Notes under the pieces: generated by a model | Seen by the model: the letters and a program-made list of their open reading frames with translations, nothing else | Databases searched by the model: none | Told to the model about the DNA's origin: nothing | Shown here: positions 16,891-24,769 of the stretch, piece after piece | Layout: each line of letters starts with the position of its first letter | How positions within the stretch are numbered: the stretch's first letter is position 1 | Translations under genes and position numbers: made by a program | NCBI RefSeq assembly: GCF_013280595.1 | Contig: NZ_JAAATY010000003.1 | Span: 310,001 to 374,000, forward strand | Length of the DNA stretch: 64,000 bases | Direction of reading: 5' to 3' | Source of the DNA: Kibdelosporangium persicum | Lineage (GTDB): Bacteria > Actinomycetota > Actinomycetes > Mycobacteriales > Pseudonocardiaceae

Positions 16891-17334
16891 GTGACCCCCG
16901 AAGAGATCATCAAGGTGCTGGACCTGCGGCCGCTGCCCGTGGAAGGCGGACTGTACAAGGAGAACCTCAACGGCCATCCGAACGCCTCGGCGATCTACTA
17001 CATGCTGGTGGCGCCGCAGGTCTCCCGGCTGCACAAGCTGGACCACATCGAGATCTACTCGTACCACGCGGGCGCGGCCGCCCGGTTGTTGCTGCTGCAC
17101 CCGGACGGCCGGGTCGACCGGCCGGTCCTCGGCATGGATCTGGCCGCGGGCGAACGTCCGCAGGTGATCGTGCCCGCCGGGACGTGGCAGGCGACCGAGA
17201 CCTTGGGCGAATGGAGCCTGCTCGGCACGGTCATGTCGCCGCCGTACCACGAGGACGGAGTGACTTTCGCCGAAGCAGGCCCTCTCGCCGCCGCCTATCC
17301 CGCTGCCGCCGAGGACATATCGCGCTTGGCCTGA
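16891..17334 (+). CDS. DUF985 cupin-like protein
   Basis: 147 residues starting with GTG at 16891. The pattern [39 protein letters not shown] and [12 protein letters not shown] matches the cupin-fold DUF985 family (YML079-like). The His/Glu residues around [11 protein letters not shown] could form a metal site, but no enzymatic role is established for the family. It is divergent from ruvC and its 3' end overlaps the antiporter gene by 40 bp. Confidence 0.85.
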
Positions 17335-18557
17335 CGGCGTTCCGCGCGCCGGTCGAGCCAGCTCAGCCACGGCGCGGTCATCATCGTCGTCACGATCGCG
17401 ACCAGCACCAGGACACTGAACAGCGCCTGCGTCACGATGCCGACCTGAAGGCCGACGTTCAACGCGATCAACTGCATGAGACCGCGGGCGTTCATCAGCA
17501 CGCCGACCCGCATCGCGACGAAGTTGTCCTCGCCGGTCAGTCGCGCCGCCGCCCAGCACGCGCCGAACTTGCCGATGACCGCGACGGCGACGCTGGCCAC
17601 CGCGAGCAGCATCAGCGGCACGGTGAACAGCAGGCCGAACGACGTGTTCAGGCCGGAGTAGGCGAAGAACAACGGCAGGAAAACGACTTTGGTCACCGAG
17701 CTGATGGCGCTGACGATCTTCTCGGCGAGTTCACCGCGCGGGAAGATGAAGCCGACGCAGAAACCGCCGAAGACGGAGTAGAGCCCGATCAGGTCGGTCC
17801 ACCACGCGGCGGCGAACAGGACGACCGCGGTCGCCAGCACCAGGTGCTCCGTGGCCATCCCCGGCCGCGCCATGACCCAGGCGAGGGCGGGCCGGGCGAT
17901 GAACCAGATCACCAGGACGAACAGCAGCGTTCCGCCCGCGGTGACGAGGATCTTGCTGGGATCGCCCGTCGCGAGGCCGATCGTCAGGGCCAGCAGGATC
18001 CACGCCACGCCGTCGTCGAGTGCGCCCGCGGCCAACGACAGTGAACCCTGGCGCGTGCGGGTCAGGTTCCGTTCGCTGATGATCCGCGCCAGCATCGGGA
18101 ACGCCGTGATCGCCAGTGCGACTCCGACGAACAACGCGGACACCCCGACCGGGACGCCTTCTTTGAGCGCGTCCACATGTCCCTGCGTCACCAGGATCAG
18201 ACCGACGCCGAGGAGCAGAGGAGCGGTGACCCCGGCGAGTGACACCGTTCCCGCCGGGCGACCGAGGCCCCGGACCTTGTGCGACGCGAACTGGTGGCCG
18301 ACTTCGAACATGAACGCGACCAGTCCGATGTGGCTGACGACGTACAGCATCGGCCGGACTTCGTCGGGGAACAACGCGTCCTGCACGCCGGGCAGCAGCA
18401 GTCCCAGTAAGGACGGCCCCAGCAGAACGCCCGCGATCATCTCCCCGACGACCGGCGGCTGGCCGATCCGCCGAGCGGCCATCACCACCACTCGGCACGT
18501 CAGCAGGATGATGACCGCGGCTAGGAAGAATCGCGCGGTAGTGGTGGCGATGTCCAT
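17295..18557 (-). CDS. Cation:proton antiporter (CPA2 family)
   Basis: 420 residues with about twelve helices. The family features are [19 protein letters not shown] near the N-terminus and [17 protein letters not shown], which carries the ion-binding Asp pair, in the middle. It would exchange protons for sodium or potassium. ATG at 18557 lies nine bp after the P450 stop, with AGGGGAC in that gap, so it is the fourth gene of the redox operon. Antiporters of this family also occur in glycopeptide antibiotic clusters, which is suggestive only. Confidence 0.88.
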
Positions 18558-18566
18558 CTGGTCCCC

Positions 18567-19886
18567 TCAATCCACGGCCAGCGAGCCGTCCTGTTGCTCG
18601 AAGTAGCGCCCGCACAGCCGCTGCCGGCGGGCGTCCCAGACCATGTAGCTGCCCAGCACGAGCTGGGTGAGGCTGCGCGTCACGTCTTCCCAGCGGTCCC
18701 GCAGCCGCATGACCGCCAGACGCCCGCCGACCGGCCGGTGGCCTGCCGACCGGTCGGTCAGCAGACACGGACCGCGGTTGGGAATCGATCGCGTGTGCGC
18801 CGCGGACGTGCGCAGTTCGAAGCGCTCGAGCGTTTCGCGCGCGACGACGCGCATCGTGACGGGCATCAGGCCGCGCGCCGGGCACGCGCGGTTCGCCGTG
18901 ACGCCGTACGGGACGTGGTTGGCGTCTTTGGCCGACGCCGTCTTCCACCGGGACGGGTCGAAGCGCTCCGGGTGGTCGAAGCCTGCCTGGTGGAAGTCGG
19001 CGTAGTTGAACAGGAGCACCGAGCCGGCCGGGATGGCGCCGATCTCGCCGGTCGTGATCCGGTGCGCGACGCCGAACAACGGGTACAGGCGCAACGCCTC
19101 GTCCATGACGTCGTCCAGGTCGACCGTTCCGTCGCGCAGTCCTTCCTGCACGTCGGCGTGTTGCGCGATCGCCATCAGCAAATGCGTCATGGCTTCGCTG
19201 GACTGCACGACCGCGGTGTTGAAGAACGTGCCTTGCAGGTACCAGGCCTGTTCCTGGGTGCTCAGCACATCCGGCAACCGGTGCGGCACTTCGCCTGCCT
19301 CGATGCGCTTGACCAAGTAACGCGTCAGTCGTTCGCGCCTCGCCATGTGCCGCAGCCCGCAGCACTTCAACGCGGTCACGACGTCGTCCGCGTTGCCGAC
19401 GATCAACTCGCGGGCATCCGACGGGCAGCGTTCGCCGAACACCACCTCGTAGTAGAAGTCCGCCCAGATCGGCATCATCACGTCCCTGAGCCGGACTTCG
19501 GTCACCGGCCCGCTGAATGCACCGAGGACTCGCTCGGTGCATTCCGCGGCAATCCGCGGTGCGTTGAGGTGCGCTCCGGCCAGAATGCGCCGAGTGGTCC
19601 GCGCGACCTCGGTGTAGCGCTCACCGGCTTCGAGGTGTTCCTGGTGCACCTGTGGTCCCGGCGCGAGCCAGTACCAGAACAGGTCCGACAGCACGGCGCC
19701 GCGGCTGCGTCCGGTGGCCGCGGGGTTTTCGTACAGCGCTCGGAACCGCGCCACCTCGACCTGGATGCCTTCTTTGCCGTTGACGTGCGCGAAGATCCGC
19801 AGCCGCAACCGGACGACCATGGCCGGTAACCAGAACGGCAGGCTGACGAGGAGAGCGAGCAGAGCGCCGAGGACCGCGATCAGCAT
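18567..19886 (-). CDS. Atypical membrane-anchored cytochrome P450
   Basis: 439 residues. An N-terminal helix (about 2-27) would anchor it, unusual for bacterial P450s. P450 features: the K-helix ExxR as EALR (263-266), HPERFDPSRW (305-314) and a heme loop PYGVTANRACPARG with the proposed ligand Cys335. The loop is degenerate: the usual Phe seven before and Gly four before the Cys are Gly and Ala. The I-helix region (219-232, TFFNTAVVQSSEAM) lacks the usual acid/Thr pair for oxygen activation, so the chemistry may be non-standard. It overlaps the upstream oxidase gene by seven bases. Family fairly sure; substrate unknown. Confidence 0.8.
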   Translation of the reverse strand: MLIAVLGALLALLVSLPFWLPAMVVRLRLRIFAHVNGKEGIQVEVARFRALYENPAATGRSRGAVLSDLFWYWLAPGPQVHQEHLEAGERYTEVARTTRRILAGAHLNAPRIAAECTERVLGAFSGPVTEVRLRDVMMPIWADFYYEVVFGERCPSDARELIVGNADDVVTALKCCGLRHMARRERLTRYLVKRIEAGEVPHRLPDVLSTQEQAWYLQGTFFNTAVVQSSEAMTHLLMAIAQHADVQEGLRDGTVDLDDVMDEALRLYPLFGVAHRITTGEIGAIPAGSVLLFNYADFHQAGFDHPERFDPSRWKTASAKDANHVPYGVTANRACPARGLMPVTMRVVARETLERFELRTSAAHTRSIPNRGPCLLTDRSAGHRPVGGRLAVMRLRDRWEDVTRSLTQLVLGSYMVWDARRQRLCGRYFEQQDGSLAVD

Positions 19887-20932
19887 CGGACCTCCCTGAC
19901 GAGATCGCTCGTTACCTGACGTACGGAGGCGCACCCGGTCAGCGCGAGCGCCCGGTCGAGCTCTCCGCGCAACAGCTCCAGGACGTCGAGCACGCCTTCT
20001 TCGCCGCGCGCCGCCAAACCCCACAGCACGGGCCTGCCGATCCCGACCGCGTGCGCGCCCAACGCGAGCGCTTTGACGACGTCGGTTCCGCGTCTGACGC
20101 CGCCGTCCATCAGCACCGGGATATCGACCGCCGCCGCGACGTCGGCGACGGCGTCGATCGCGGCCACGGCCGTGTCCAACTGACGGCCGCCGTGGTTGGA
20201 CACCAGTAATCCGCTGACTCCGTGTTCGACGGCCGTGACCGCGTCAGCCGGATGCATCAGTCCTTTCAGGACGATCGGGAGTTCCGTCGTCTGTCTGAGA
20301 CGGTCGATGTGCTCCCACGACAGCTCCGGCACCATCGCGATGCTGCGCACGCCGCTGTCCCCGGCCAGACCACGCATGTTCTCGCAGTACAGGCCGGCCG
20401 GCAGGTCGTGGAACTCGTTGTGGTGATCGCGTTGGCGCCAGCCGAGAACCGGCGAGTCGACCGTGACGACCAGCGCCCGGCAGCCCGCGTCCTCGGCCCG
20501 CTTGACCAGAGCGTCGGTGACCGCCTGGTCAGGCTGGATGTAGAGCTGGAACCACAGGACCAGATCGGCGCCGCCTGCGGTGGCGATGTCGCCGATCGGC
20601 ACGGTCGACGCCATGCTGGCGATCAGGACCGTGCCCGCCTTCGCCGCCGCCCGGGCCGTGGCCTGCTCGCCCGCCGGATCGGCCAGCCGGTGGAACGCGG
20701 TGGGTGAGAGCAGTACCGGCATGGTGATCCCGGCGCCGAACAAGGTCGTACCGAGATCGCGTCCGGGTTGCCCCCGCAGAACCCGGGGCAACAACCGCAG
20801 ACGGGCGAACGCTTGCTCGTTCGCCCGCACCGTCACCTCGTCGTCCGCGCCACCCGCGATGAAGTCGTACGCGTACCGCGGCAACCGGTCTCTGGCCAGC
20901 GCCTCGAACTCCCTGACCGAGAACGGCATCAT
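19880..20932 (-). CDS. FMN-dependent alpha-hydroxy-acid oxidase/dehydrogenase
   Basis: 350 residues, complete TIM-barrel flavoenzyme of the lactate/glycolate/mandelate oxidase family. Visible sites: YAYDFIAGGADDE (20-32), WFQLYIQ with Tyr131, and the active-site loop SNHGGRQLD with catalytic His247 and Arg250. It should oxidise a 2-hydroxy acid to the 2-oxo acid; the electron acceptor cannot be read from sequence. The closest functional analogies are lactate oxidases and the 4-hydroxymandelate oxidase of glycopeptide clusters. It overlaps its upstream and downstream neighbours (ATGA and seven bases), so it is translated together with them. Confidence 0.92.
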   Translation of the reverse strand: MMPFSVREFEALARDRLPRYAYDFIAGGADDEVTVRANEQAFARLRLLPRVLRGQPGRDLGTTLFGAGITMPVLLSPTAFHRLADPAGEQATARAAAKAGTVLIASMASTVPIGDIATAGGADLVLWFQLYIQPDQAVTDALVKRAEDAGCRALVVTVDSPVLGWRQRDHHNEFHDLPAGLYCENMRGLAGDSGVRSIAMVPELSWEHIDRLRQTTELPIVLKGLMHPADAVTAVEHGVSGLLVSNHGGRQLDTAVAAIDAVADVAAAVDIPVLMDGGVRRGTDVVKALALGAHAVGIGRPVLWGLAARGEEGVLDVLELLRGELDRALALTGCASVRQVTSDLVREVRC

Positions 20933-22491
20933 GTCGTCGCGGTCAGGACGGTCTGGAGCAGCCGCTCCGCGAGGAACTCGGTCAACGGTTTGCGGTGGTG
21001 GTCCTCACTCGTCCAGTCGTTCTCCAGGTTCTCGGCCACGTGGTGCTCGGCCAGCACACTGCCGCGTTGGACGTGCCGCACCACTGGGTGCAGGTACGCC
21101 GCGTCGTGCGCACGTTCGGCGTTGTCCTGCGCGACGCGGCGCACGGTGATGTCGAACGGGTCCACTTTGTCGTGGTCCGGGCCGTACTCGAGCGTGACGA
21201 TGAAGTAGTCGTCAGCGAACTCGCTGTCGTGCGCGTAGTCGACCGGGACCTCCTCGTGGTACCGGGCTTCTCTGCCGTTCACGGCGATCAGGTCGCCCAG
21301 CATGCCGAACTGCTGCCAGAGCGCTGAGCTGCGGTTGACGCGCTCGAGGATGGCGTCGGTCAACGCGACCGGGTCCGCCGGATATGCCACACACGGCCAT
21401 TCCTGGCCATGGTTCTTGTGCTCCAGAATCCGGTGCAGCGCCTTGACGGTGTACCGGAAACCGTGGATGAACCCGCTCGTGGACTTCTTGAAGTCGCGGA
21501 CCTGCATCACCGTGCCGGCGAAGTACAGGCCGGGCACGTTGGTCGACTGCCATTCGCTGGTCTGCGCGGGGAAACGGTCCTTGATCACCAGTTCCGGACG
21601 GCAGTTCTCCGCGAAGATCGACGTGTCGAAGCGGAACCCGGTGCAGGCGATCACGCGGTCGTACGGGATGTCCTTGACCACTTCGTTGGCCCTGGAGAAG
21701 CTGACCGACACGACGAACCTGTCGCCGTCCTTGCGGATGTTGAGGATGTTGCCGTCCAGGATCGCGTTCTGAGACTTGAGCTGATACGTGTCCAGGAAGT
21801 TGTTGTTGACCGCACGCAGATGCCCGACGAAATGCGACTGCCACGCGAACCGCACCGAGTTCGGTCCGGCGACGTGAATGACGGCCGCGGTCTCGACCAG
21901 GTTGTCGGCGGTCTCGAAGGCCGAGTTGCCCTTCCCGATGATCAGCACCCGCTGGTCAGTGAAGTCCTGCGGGTCGACGCTGACCGTGCCGTACGACTCG
22001 ACGAGGTCGATGCCCGGGATGTCCGGCACGAACGGCTGCGACGGACCGGTCGCGACGATCACCGTGGGCGCTTCGTAGACCTCGCCCTTGTCGTCGACGA
22101 CTCGGAAGTTCTCGCCTTTGCCGACTTCCACGACACGCGCGTTGTACCGGACGGACAGGTCGAGCTTCGTGGCGAAGTCGTCGAGGTACCGGACCATGTC
22201 GTCGGCGTCCGGAAAGTACCGGGGTGTGTATTTCGTGAAAAGCAGATCGTGGTCGTCCGACAGCAACGAGTTCCAGTCCATCCGCAGGTTGAACTCGGCG
22301 TCGTCGATGCCGGTGCGCGGCTTGTTGATCGAGATCAGCTGACGGTGCCGGGGAAACGTGGCGAAGAACGAACCGGCCGACGGACCGGCCTCGACTACCA
22401 GGTAGTCGCGGCCCGCCCGGTCGAGGAAGTAGGCCAGCTGAAGCCCGGCCGGTCCCGCCCCGATCACCAGATAATCCGTGGCAGTGGGCAT
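20929..22491 (-). CDS. FOXRED2-like FAD/NAD(P)-binding oxidoreductase
   Basis: 520 residues. Dinucleotide fold 1 is VIGAGPAGLQLAYFL (about 9-23) and fold 2 is LIIGKGNSAFETADNL (about 180). The block INKPRTGIDDAEFNLRMDWN followed by SLLSDD and the PDADDMVRYLDDF stretch resembles the eukaryotic ER flavoprotein FOXRED2/ERFAD and its bacterial relatives, not classical Baeyer-Villiger enzymes. Reaction unknown; flavin-dependent monooxygenation or disulfide reduction are both possible. ATG at 22491 follows GGAGGGGATGTC. It is the first gene of the four-gene operon. Confidence 0.82.
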   Translation of the reverse strand: MPTATDYLVIGAGPAGLQLAYFLDRAGRDYLVVEAGPSAGSFFATFPRHRQLISINKPRTGIDDAEFNLRMDWNSLLSDDHDLLFTKYTPRYFPDADDMVRYLDDFATKLDLSVRYNARVVEVGKGENFRVVDDKGEVYEAPTVIVATGPSQPFVPDIPGIDLVESYGTVSVDPQDFTDQRVLIIGKGNSAFETADNLVETAAVIHVAGPNSVRFAWQSHFVGHLRAVNNNFLDTYQLKSQNAILDGNILNIRKDGDRFVVSVSFSRANEVVKDIPYDRVIACTGFRFDTSIFAENCRPELVIKDRFPAQTSEWQSTNVPGLYFAGTVMQVRDFKKSTSGFIHGFRYTVKALHRILEHKNHGQEWPCVAYPADPVALTDAILERVNRSSALWQQFGMLGDLIAVNGREARYHEEVPVDYAHDSEFADDYFIVTLEYGPDHDKVDPFDITVRRVAQDNAERAHDAAYLHPVVRHVQRGSVLAEHHVAENLENDWTSEDHHRKPLTEFLAERLLQTVLTATT

Positions 22492-22508
22492 GACATCCCC
22501 TCCGTGGA

Positions 22509-22520
22509 CACCTTGAGGTG
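22509..22520. promoter_or_regulatory. Candidate operator upstream of the redox operon
   Basis: The palindrome CACCT-TG-AGGTG lies 18 bases upstream of the first gene of the redox operon, just before its ribosome binding site. It could be a repressor site or an mRNA hairpin. No regulator gene is adjacent. The rest of the 156-bp gap (22492-22647) shows nothing else I can name. Confidence 0.3.
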
Positions 22521-22647
22521 GTGTGACAAGGGATGACTACGCACGTGGCCACGATGCAGTTCGCTGGTCGGACAGCGTAACTTTTCCCAGTATTGGTCTC
22601 AGTGCCGCGCCATTGTGCGCAGCGGGACGAACCTGGTAATGGCGGGC

Positions 22648-23166
22648 CTACGGACCGTTGACGCCGGGTATCCAGCTTTCCGGCCGGCCGCTTTCGGTCA
22701 GCACGTGCTGCCAGTCCGAGAAGCCGGCGGGGGCGTCCGGCGACCACGGCCAGTGGCCGTCCGCGGTGGGCGTGATGATCTGCAGCGCCGGGAAGTCGCC
22801 CTTGCGGTACAGCACGAACGCGCTGCCGAAGTACTCCAGGTAGTGCCCTTTGTTGACGCGCTCGACCGTCACCGGGATGCCTTCGAAGAAGTCCTCGTAC
22901 AGGTGTCCCGGCAGAAACCGCTCACCGTTCCTGGCACGGTCGAGGTACGCGTTGATCAGCACCGGCCCCATGCCCTCCGGCAGGCCCAGCACCACGGCCT
23001 CGGCGACGCCGAACCGGCGCCACGCGCCGACTGAGAACGTGTAGCCCGCGCCGCCCTGGTCGCCGGGGACGTCGATGACCGCACAACCGTTGACTTCGGT
23101 CTCCTGAAGCAGCCAGTCGCGGAATCTCTGTTCGTCAGGGTTCAGCGGCTCGGACACGTCCGCCAT
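22648..23166 (-). CDS. DUF4262 domain protein
   Basis: 172 residues starting MADVSEPLNPDEQ. The segment GAGYTFSVGAWRRFGVAEAVVLGLPEGMG and the later EGIPVTVERVNKGHYLEYFG fit the DUF4262 family (small soluble proteins of unknown function). No signal or membrane segment. Its start lies nine bp after the stop of the membrane protein gene upstream, so the two are likely co-transcribed. No function can be given. Confidence 0.75.
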   Translation of the reverse strand: MADVSEPLNPDEQRFRDWLLQETEVNGCAVIDVPGDQGGAGYTFSVGAWRRFGVAEAVVLGLPEGMGPVLINAYLDRARNGERFLPGHLYEDFFEGIPVTVERVNKGHYLEYFGSAFVLYRKGDFPALQIITPTADGHWPWSPDAPAGFSDWQHVLTESGRPESWIPGVNGP

Positions 23167-23175
23167 TGTGCCTGG

Positions 23176-23820
23176 TCATCCGATCGAGCGATAACTCGCC
23201 TTGGCCCTGCCGAACGCGTACAGCAGGTACCCCAGCGCCAGCAAGGCGACGGCGAAGCCGGCGATCACACCGGGGAAGCTCGGTGCGCCCGGGTTGAGGA
23301 AGCGCCCGTACAGCCGGAGATCGGCGGCCACGTAGTAGAGCAGGTAGAGCAGCGGGTAACCGAGCCAGCTGATCGGGTACCACCATTTCATCGCCCGCTG
23401 GTTGCGGCCGACCACCAGGAAGTCGGCCAGCACGGCCAACGGCGTGATCATGTGCTCTAACAGCGAGTACGCGCTGCTCAGGCTGCCGCTCAGCAACGTC
23501 ATGAACGTGACGCACACCAGCAGCGACAACACGGTCATCGCGCCACGCAACCACGGCGATCGCGGTTCGGCGCGGCCGGTGATCAGCGGATACGCGGCGA
23601 GTCCGGTGTAGACGACACCGGCGAGCAGGCTGGCCTGCTGGCTCAACGCCGTCAGTGGATCAGGCAACTGGCCGACGGCCAGGAAGAAGCCGAGGAACCC
23701 GCAGAACGCCACGAGCAGACGCCATGCGAAAACCCCGGGCACGGCCCGGGGTTTCGGCAGGACAGCGTCGTCGGCGGTCAGTTCGGCCTCACGCGTCCAC
23801 GGCCGCCAGAATGTCGTCAC
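23176..23820 (-). CDS. Pr6Pr-type six-helix membrane protein
   Basis: 214 residues with six predicted helices. HMITPLAVLADFLVVG and the WWYPISWLGYPLLYLLYY region are typical of the Pr6Pr family, membrane proteins of unknown function. The GTG start at 23820 lies inside a diverged copy of the yebC 3' end, so the first twelve residues (MTTFWRPWTREA) are encoded by yebC-tail DNA in another frame. There is no clear ribosome binding site, and a start further in is possible; the hydrophobic part begins near residue 31. Confidence 0.75.
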   Translation of the reverse strand: MTTFWRPWTREAELTADDAVLPKPRAVPGVFAWRLLVAFCGFLGFFLAVGQLPDPLTALSQQASLLAGVVYTGLAAYPLITGRAEPRSPWLRGAMTVLSLLVCVTFMTLLSGSLSSAYSLLEHMITPLAVLADFLVVGRNQRAMKWWYPISWLGYPLLYLLYYVAADLRLYGRFLNPGAPSFPGVIAGFAVALLALGYLLYAFGRAKASYRSIG

Positions 23821-24016
23821 TCACGTGGAATCGGGCACAGTGCGTAGACGTCCCGCCAGCCACCTCACGCATCCACAGCCGCCAAAATGTCGTCACTCAC
23901 ATGGAATCGGGCACAGTGCGTAGACGTCCCGCCAGCCACCTCACGCATCCACAGCCGCCAAAATGTCGTCACTCACATGGAATCGGGCACAGTGCGTAGA
24001 CGTCCCGCCAGCCACC

Positions 24017-24769
<753 letters not shown>

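Follow-up and report, generated by a model that had tools for sequence, protein, structure and literature searches.

The interval between ruvC and yebC in Kibdelosporangium persicum raises the question of what joins the four genes found there and what their products do together. Within a 64,000-nucleotide stretch of contig NZ_JAAATY010000003.1 (hereafter, the window), these minus-strand genes (22491–17295) encode, in this order, a flavoprotein, a flavin mononucleotide (FMN)-dependent oxidase, an atypical P450 and an antiporter (Table 1). The flavoprotein and oxidase genes overlap by four bases (ATGA), the oxidase and P450 genes overlap by seven, and the antiporter gene begins 9 bp past the P450 stop; an earlier note on this DNA had given these coordinates, overlaps, spacing and the ruvC–yebC location correctly, and had proposed a single redox unit, foreign to its surroundings. 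The present analysis indicates that the genes belong to a cassette that is widespread but patchy in Actinomycetota and whose usual set has a fifth member, a predicted acyl-adenylating ligase overlooked in that note. The chances that this five-protein set is a mobile biosynthetic cassette making an acid-derived small molecule seem to us evenly poised.

The distribution of the cassette was followed through its P450, which occurs in 43 of 200 same-family genomes (14 of 46 genera) and in 6 of the 396 genomes sampled across the phylum (E ≤ 1e-40), K. persicum itself being included in both counts; in a scan of one genome per species across 84,980 species, 360 of 402 candidate stretches matched. The nearest named relatives are K. 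aridum (84% P450 identity) and K. banguiense (76%). A scan of viral contigs for close relatives found none of the cassette, and the one match in a plasmid scan was a chromosome-sized Nonomuraea gerenzanensis record in which the matching stretch lacks annotation. For comparison, 100 loci were assembled from 20 of the 43 family loci and the best 80 of the 360 database matches (94 with distinct P450s), with about 10 kb on each side where the contig allowed; the loci were retrieved via the P450, so its presence is by construction, while that of its neighbours is not.

The oxidase gene lies directly upstream of the P450 gene in 98 of the 100 loci, overlapping it in 75, the flavoprotein gene is upstream of the oxidase gene in 89, and the antiporter gene is downstream of the P450 gene in 68. 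The 11 loci without a called flavoprotein–oxidase pair include two in which the oxidase is missing (L073, L109) and six with no local flavoprotein (L080, L092, L100, L117, L120, L135); two more are truncated at the edge of their contig (L076, L087), and one further locus makes up the total. Pairwise distances of the five proteins, ligase included, correlate with r values of 0.71–0.87 (45–91 loci per pair), against null maxima of 0.11–0.32. The single redox unit of the earlier note is borne out by this kept order and co-inheritance; the same gene order is found widely in other actinobacteria, where the homologs clearly do co-occur.

In 59 of the 100 loci, the stretch also contains a gene for an AMP-dependent ligase. 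The K. persicum ligase is encoded in trans, on another contig (C47, 9011–10432), and is 53% identical to the cassette ligase of locus L055, the next best protein of the genome reaching 32%; its neighbours there look, from labels assigned by eye, like housekeeping genes, e.g., peptidyl-tRNA hydrolase. At E ≤ 1e-85, a threshold chosen after this gap in identity had been seen, the ligase is present in 39 of the 200 family genomes, all 39 being among the 43 P450-positive ones, and in none of the 157 P450-negative ones, including a genome of the same genus with a decayed cassette (G114). The formal association is very strong (Fisher p 2.4e-37), but this value ignores shared ancestry and is therefore too small, so weight is put on the nested distribution and the apparent joint loss in G114; without a common function, the confinement of the ligase to P450-positive genomes would be difficult to account for. 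The ligase of locus L129 contains an AMP-binding and a C-terminal domain, and its top subfamily is the long-chain-fatty-acid ligases (213.3 bits, under the cut-off of 476). The best solved relative of the cassette ligase is 6sq8, listed as a fatty acid CoA ligase (217 bits), which we take to be McbA; the cassette ligase is only moderately similar to McbA-type amide-bond synthetases and to coumarate and fatty-acid ligases, with which the L129 protein shares its domain composition, and the product of the cassette ligase may be a CoA ester, an amide or an adenylate.

The second protein of the cassette clearly belongs to the FMN_dh family (PF01070, 406.9 bits). The SNHGGRQLD motif, described as intact in the earlier note, was confirmed, and the residues N, H, G, G, R and Q within it are invariant in 96 of 96 relatives, as are D159, K223, H247 and R250, to which we assign catalytic roles. 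The same catalytic Asp, Lys, His and Arg are found in hydroxyacid oxidases 2 and 3 (HAO2, HAO3), glycolate oxidase and 4-hydroxymandelate oxidase (Hmo), and the PTAFH motif of HAO2 and HAO3 is found in the cassette oxidase too. Among single-stretch PDB matches, HAO3 ranks first (304 bits; Hmo, 242 bits); 7f22 and 7f20 outscore it only by summing two repeats. The K. persicum protein has Phe in place of glycolate oxidase Tyr24 (in the family, Tyr 68/96, Phe 28/96). The cassette oxidases differ from these enzymes in their fixed cassette setting and in that the position aligned with the second substrate-side Arg of glycolate oxidase (presumably Arg164) retains Arg in just 61 of 96. The oxidase may act with O2 on an intermediate resembling a 2-hydroxy acid.

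The P450 is less conventional. Its Pfam p450 match covers residues 257–369 only (39.6 bits) and a C-terminal extension begins beyond about residue 384; the predicted structure is a full P450 fold, and the heme Cys and ExxR expected of PF00067 are present. The heme loop, PYGVTANRACPA, is about one residue longer than what we take to be the usual FxxGxRxC spacing, and the earlier note had called it degenerate; the pattern P[FY]GxxxNRxCPA occurs in 100 of 100 homologs, so that it is a signature of the family. The same note had reported the I-helix acid/Thr pair missing; the helix reads GTFFNT, with the acid replaced by Asn and the Thr kept. The Asn is found in 98 of the 100 P450s, Thr standing in its place in L109 and L123. 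More than 60% of the 25 N-terminal residues are hydrophobic in 86 of 100, which suggests that the protein may be membrane-anchored. No credible ferredoxin frame was seen within 5 kb in the 100 loci. The genome of K. persicum gives 80 P450 profile matches (E up to 0.001), some of them fragments of one gene, indicating a large P450 complement.

E264 (99/100), R267 and R314 (98/100 each) are conserved and presumably, from their positions, form the ERR triad. The triad and the lack of a redox partner gene nearby are also features of the CYP74 clan (allene oxide synthase, hydroperoxide lyase, epoxyalcohol synthase). A further likeness is the I-helix Asn at the catalytic position; according to PMC8124189, CYP74 enzymes have a conserved Asn in the I-helix groove and use it on fatty acid hydroperoxides. 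The cassette P450 differs from the clan in lacking the nine-residue heme-domain insertion, in having PLFG (100/100) in place of the PPV region and in its C-terminal extension; CYP74 chains are not among the 50 matches listed by VIA-align for the P450 model, which proves nothing.

The flavoprotein matches Pyr_redox_3 (174.8 bits), and SMFMO and YpdA tie as the nearest structures to its model (pLDDT 76.1). The fingerprints of flavin-containing monooxygenases (FMO) and Baeyer–Villiger monooxygenases (BVMO), including FxGxxxHxxx[WYF], occur in 0 of 102 flavoproteins, and no Cys is invariant (Cys283 82%, Cys297 88%), so the protein is classed only as a predicted NADPH-type flavoprotein. Unlike class B flavin monooxygenases (SMFMO, FMO, N-hydroxylases), it lacks their fingerprints and has an extra C-terminal region of tentative fold. 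FOXRED2 is not among its 45 solved-structure matches, and the resemblance to FOXRED2/ERFAD noted earlier is a presumed one. A second flavoprotein subfamily, 43–47% identical to that of the window, is encoded at L154 9095–10603, L155 9526–11025, L156 9123–10631 and L157 8888–10396; by eye, it adjoins glutamate-cysteine-ligase-like genes in L155–L157 and AhpD-like genes in L156 and L157. Such proteins, at 44–47% identity the flavoprotein match in five of eight genomes checked, were rejected as cassette members, the four inspected sitting beside other genes. The antiporter matches PF00999 (Na_H_Exchanger, 161.9 bits) and TIGR00932 (123.9 bits, below the curated 238.3), and the CPA2 assignment of the earlier note agrees with the Na_H_Exchanger/CPA2 profile.

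In the genus of the window, the cassette lies between DUF4262 and cupin-like genes, with ruvC on one side and yebC on the other; DUF4262 and a small membrane-protein gene are on the yebC side, and the cupin-like gene, on the plus strand, overlaps the end of the antiporter gene. Outside the genus, neither ruvC nor yebC was matched in the stretches. The yebC site was inspected in eight same-family genomes. G171, whose cassette is elsewhere, has an empty site, a DUF4262 match being followed by a cupin match about 20 bases on; G029, G019 and G016 contain yebC and ruvC with no cassette matches between them, and in G022, G148 and G086 ruvC is outside the stretch, so these have no bearing on the question. 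G114 retains a relic, with an open oxidase frame, a flavoprotein frame of 253 residues with large inner deletions, a short P450 3' remnant (by eye) and no antiporter match. Most simply, the cassette would have been inserted between the DUF4262 and cupin genes, and the foreignness of the unit to this interval, claimed earlier, is supported by the comparison. No sigma-70-like match was found in the gap upstream of the operon.

Table 1. Features of the cassette and its boundaries in the window
Feature	Position	Strand	Remarks
FAD/NADPH flavoprotein	20929..22491	-	First cassette gene; 520 aa; predicted class-B-monooxygenase-like fold
FMN-dependent 2-hydroxy-acid oxidase (PF01070)	19880..20932	-	350 aa
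Atypical P450	18567..19886	-	ATG at 19886; 439 aa; hydrophobic N-terminal helix
CPA2-type cation:proton antiporter	17295..18557	-	420 aa
Operon upstream gap	22492..22647	-	Probable place of the promoter
Cupin-like gene (named by eye)	16891..17334	+	Convergent; host-side insertion boundary; outside the cassette
DUF4262 gene	22648..23166	-	Other host-side insertion boundary; outside the cassette

Several details of the surroundings were also noticed. A 76-bp tandem repeat (23787–24052, 3.5 copies, 97% matches) appears by eye to be the 3' end of yebC, including its stop, repeated downstream; about 3 bases are all that separates the yebC match from that of the next gene in L039 and L041. L059 and L060 have a 915-aa frame on the opposite strand between the DUF4262 and flavoprotein genes, absent from the window. 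L059 is titled Rhodococcus rhodnii NRRL B-16535; its gene order resembles that of Kibdelosporangium, its P450 identity is 84%, and the strain may be mislabelled.

Some loci contain additional members. An aromatic ammonia-lyase of the 4-methylideneimidazole-5-one (MIO) type occurs in 12 of 100 loci, all 12 of which also contain a second flavoprotein and a ligase; a separate module in G596 (L158) consists of lyase, flavoprotein and ligase. ASGD is found in 12 of 12 lyases and AHL in 11 of 12 (L122 was not read by the pattern), and we take the His-Leu pair to be typical of tyrosine ammonia-lyases; the NCBIfam equivalog cut-offs are not reached, so tyrosine specificity stays a prediction. A relative in the K. 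persicum genome (L145, 43% identity) was set aside as belonging, by identity, to a different subfamily. A sulfotransferase (PF17784, 224.4 bits for the query) is encoded in 30 of 100 loci, divergently beside the ligase in 22 and within the operon, flanked by the oxidase and P450 genes, in 8. A response-regulator cluster is represented in 48 and a sensor-kinase cluster in 45 of 95 loci, one pair having been checked with Pfam. Outside Actinomycetota, the cassette was found in Paraburkholderia acidicola (L072) and in a contig of an acidobacterial metagenome-assembled genome (L068), followed in both by a heme-oxygenase-like diiron protein (L072 12412–13470, PF14518; L068 6477–7307; 49% mutual identity), which is weakly similar to HrmI and 4-chloro-allylglycine synthase and had no match at E ≤ 1e-3 in the remaining loci compared. 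The gene preceding it in L068 resembles, by eye, another adenylate-forming enzyme.

Biosynthesis is favoured over breakdown or detoxification because of the linked ligase, tyrosine-type ammonia-lyase, sulfotransferase and carrier. In such a pathway, the ligase would activate a carboxylic acid, possibly p-coumarate where a tyrosine-type lyase is encoded; oxygenation and two-electron oxidation steps would fall to the flavoprotein and the FMN oxidase, the latter converting a 2-hydroxy-acid-like intermediate into its 2-oxo form with release of H2O2. The putatively membrane-anchored P450 might then carry out a rearrangement, a cleavage or a peroxide-driven step and would need no dedicated ferredoxin, and the product, sulfated in some lineages, would be exported with the help of the proton-coupled antiporter; a two-component system may often be encoded near the cassette. 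The order of these steps and the substrates are likewise tentative. The compact pathway of the earlier note thus survives in part: making is preferred to detoxifying, whereas the unit in the window is incomplete, its ligase being in trans, and a 2-hydroxy acid is no more than a candidate starting compound, the oxidase having no match at E ≤ 1e-60 in the whole genome of one species that keeps the rest.

A number of observations weigh against a five-protein biosynthetic cassette. The whole genome of G595 contains no oxidase match at this threshold and keeps the rest of the cassette, and the oxidase match of G596 is a 48% paralog only, so the oxidase is not obligatory; six loci that do not run into a contig end have no local flavoprotein. 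No ligase was detected in 41 of the 100 stretches, the search in trans having been confined to the family of the window, and 5 of the 59 ligase matches (L080, L100, L117, L120, L135) are only 37–45% identical. Four P450-positive genomes are ligase-negative (G011, 74% complete; G107; G148; G192), and the missing ligase of G114, a draft genome (98% complete; contamination 6), could reflect a gap. Lastly, L074 (Actinoallomurus) and its relatives encode a major facilitator superfamily (MFS) protein resembling aromatic-acid transporters and a DUF6282 protein, which would suit catabolism as well.

The last observation leads to the reading of the genes as a catabolic or detoxification unit, in which the cell would import or generate an aromatic or 2-hydroxy acid, the ligase would activate it and oxidation would follow, with the antiporter handling acid stress; we consider it unlikely. 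Against the aromatic acid/H+ symport subfamily, the L074 carrier reaches 133.5 bits, short of the cut-off of 418.55; its MFS cluster occurs in five loci (L058, L065, L074, L097, L098) and the DUF6282 cluster in five (L058, L066, L071, L074, L092), none with an antiporter, the Pfam check covering L074 only. An aldehyde dehydrogenase gene adjoining the cassette in L098 (Actinocatenispora) and the two-component genes in about half of the loci would also fit breakdown. The tyrosine-type ammonia-lyase and the sulfotransferase in or beside the unit point, however, to the making and decorating of a compound, and no decarboxylase or ring-cleavage family came up among the annotated neighbours, which are a small fraction of the total.

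It is also doubtful that the cassette serves a lipid pathway of the alpha-oxidation or oxylipin type, the P450 and an enzyme like long-chain hydroxy-acid oxidase acting on a fatty acyl chain and the ligase being a fatty-acid ligase. The hydrophobic P450 N-terminus, the nearness of the oxidase to HAO3 with the common PTAFH and the Phe at the Tyr24 place, and the best subfamily of the L129 ligase are consistent with it, as is the I-helix Asn, through which CYP74 enzymes act on fatty acid hydroperoxides (PMC8124189). Variants with the ammonia-lyase or the aromatic carrier point instead to aromatic acids, and neither a lipoxygenase nor a desaturase is among the same neighbours.

That the four genes are mere neighbours without a common function is very improbable: the individual families are presumably common in actinobacteria and nothing else favours this, whereas the order kept at different sites, the co-inheritance, the coupling to a ligase in trans and the apparent co-loss oppose it, and chance neighbourhood is ruled out by the 100 loci together with the presence/absence profile in the family.

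Returning to biosynthesis, clusters that supply 4-hydroxyphenylglycine to glycopeptides through Hmo contain an oxidase of the same superfamily and also have P450 and antiporter genes. The cassette oxidase is nearer to HAO3 than to Hmo, and no peptide synthetase is among the annotated neighbour genes, which are a part of all neighbours, HmaS and HpgT lying outside that search. A bolder proposal, which we make with little confidence, is that the P450 founds a bacterial family cleaving or isomerising peroxides or N–O/O–O bonds with a CYP74-like Asn and no electron-transfer partners, fed by peroxide from the oxidase of the overlapping gene, in an undescribed natural-product pathway from an acid precursor common to many actinobacteria. 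Strict coupling of the oxidase H2O2 to the P450 is weakened as an idea, oxidase loss and Asn loss showing no clean correlation: L109, without the oxidase, has also lost the Asn (FCTT), L073, likewise without it, keeps the Asn, and L123, with the oxidase, has FFTT. Since one species has the P450 and, in its whole genome, no oxidase match at E ≤ 1e-60, such a link, attractive as it is, cannot be general. A search of open PMC literature with guessed terms, most subscription journals being outside its scope, turned up no description of the cassette.

The cassette is a defined, portable gene set whose missing fifth gene can now be named, which allows an unexplored P450 family to be assayed jointly with the flavoprotein, a presumed look-alike of an orphan human ER protein. 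Its patchy but linked distribution, with 360 database matches for the P450, suggests a common metabolite in these bacteria, which cluster-finding based on nonribosomal peptide synthetase or polyketide synthase cores could miss.

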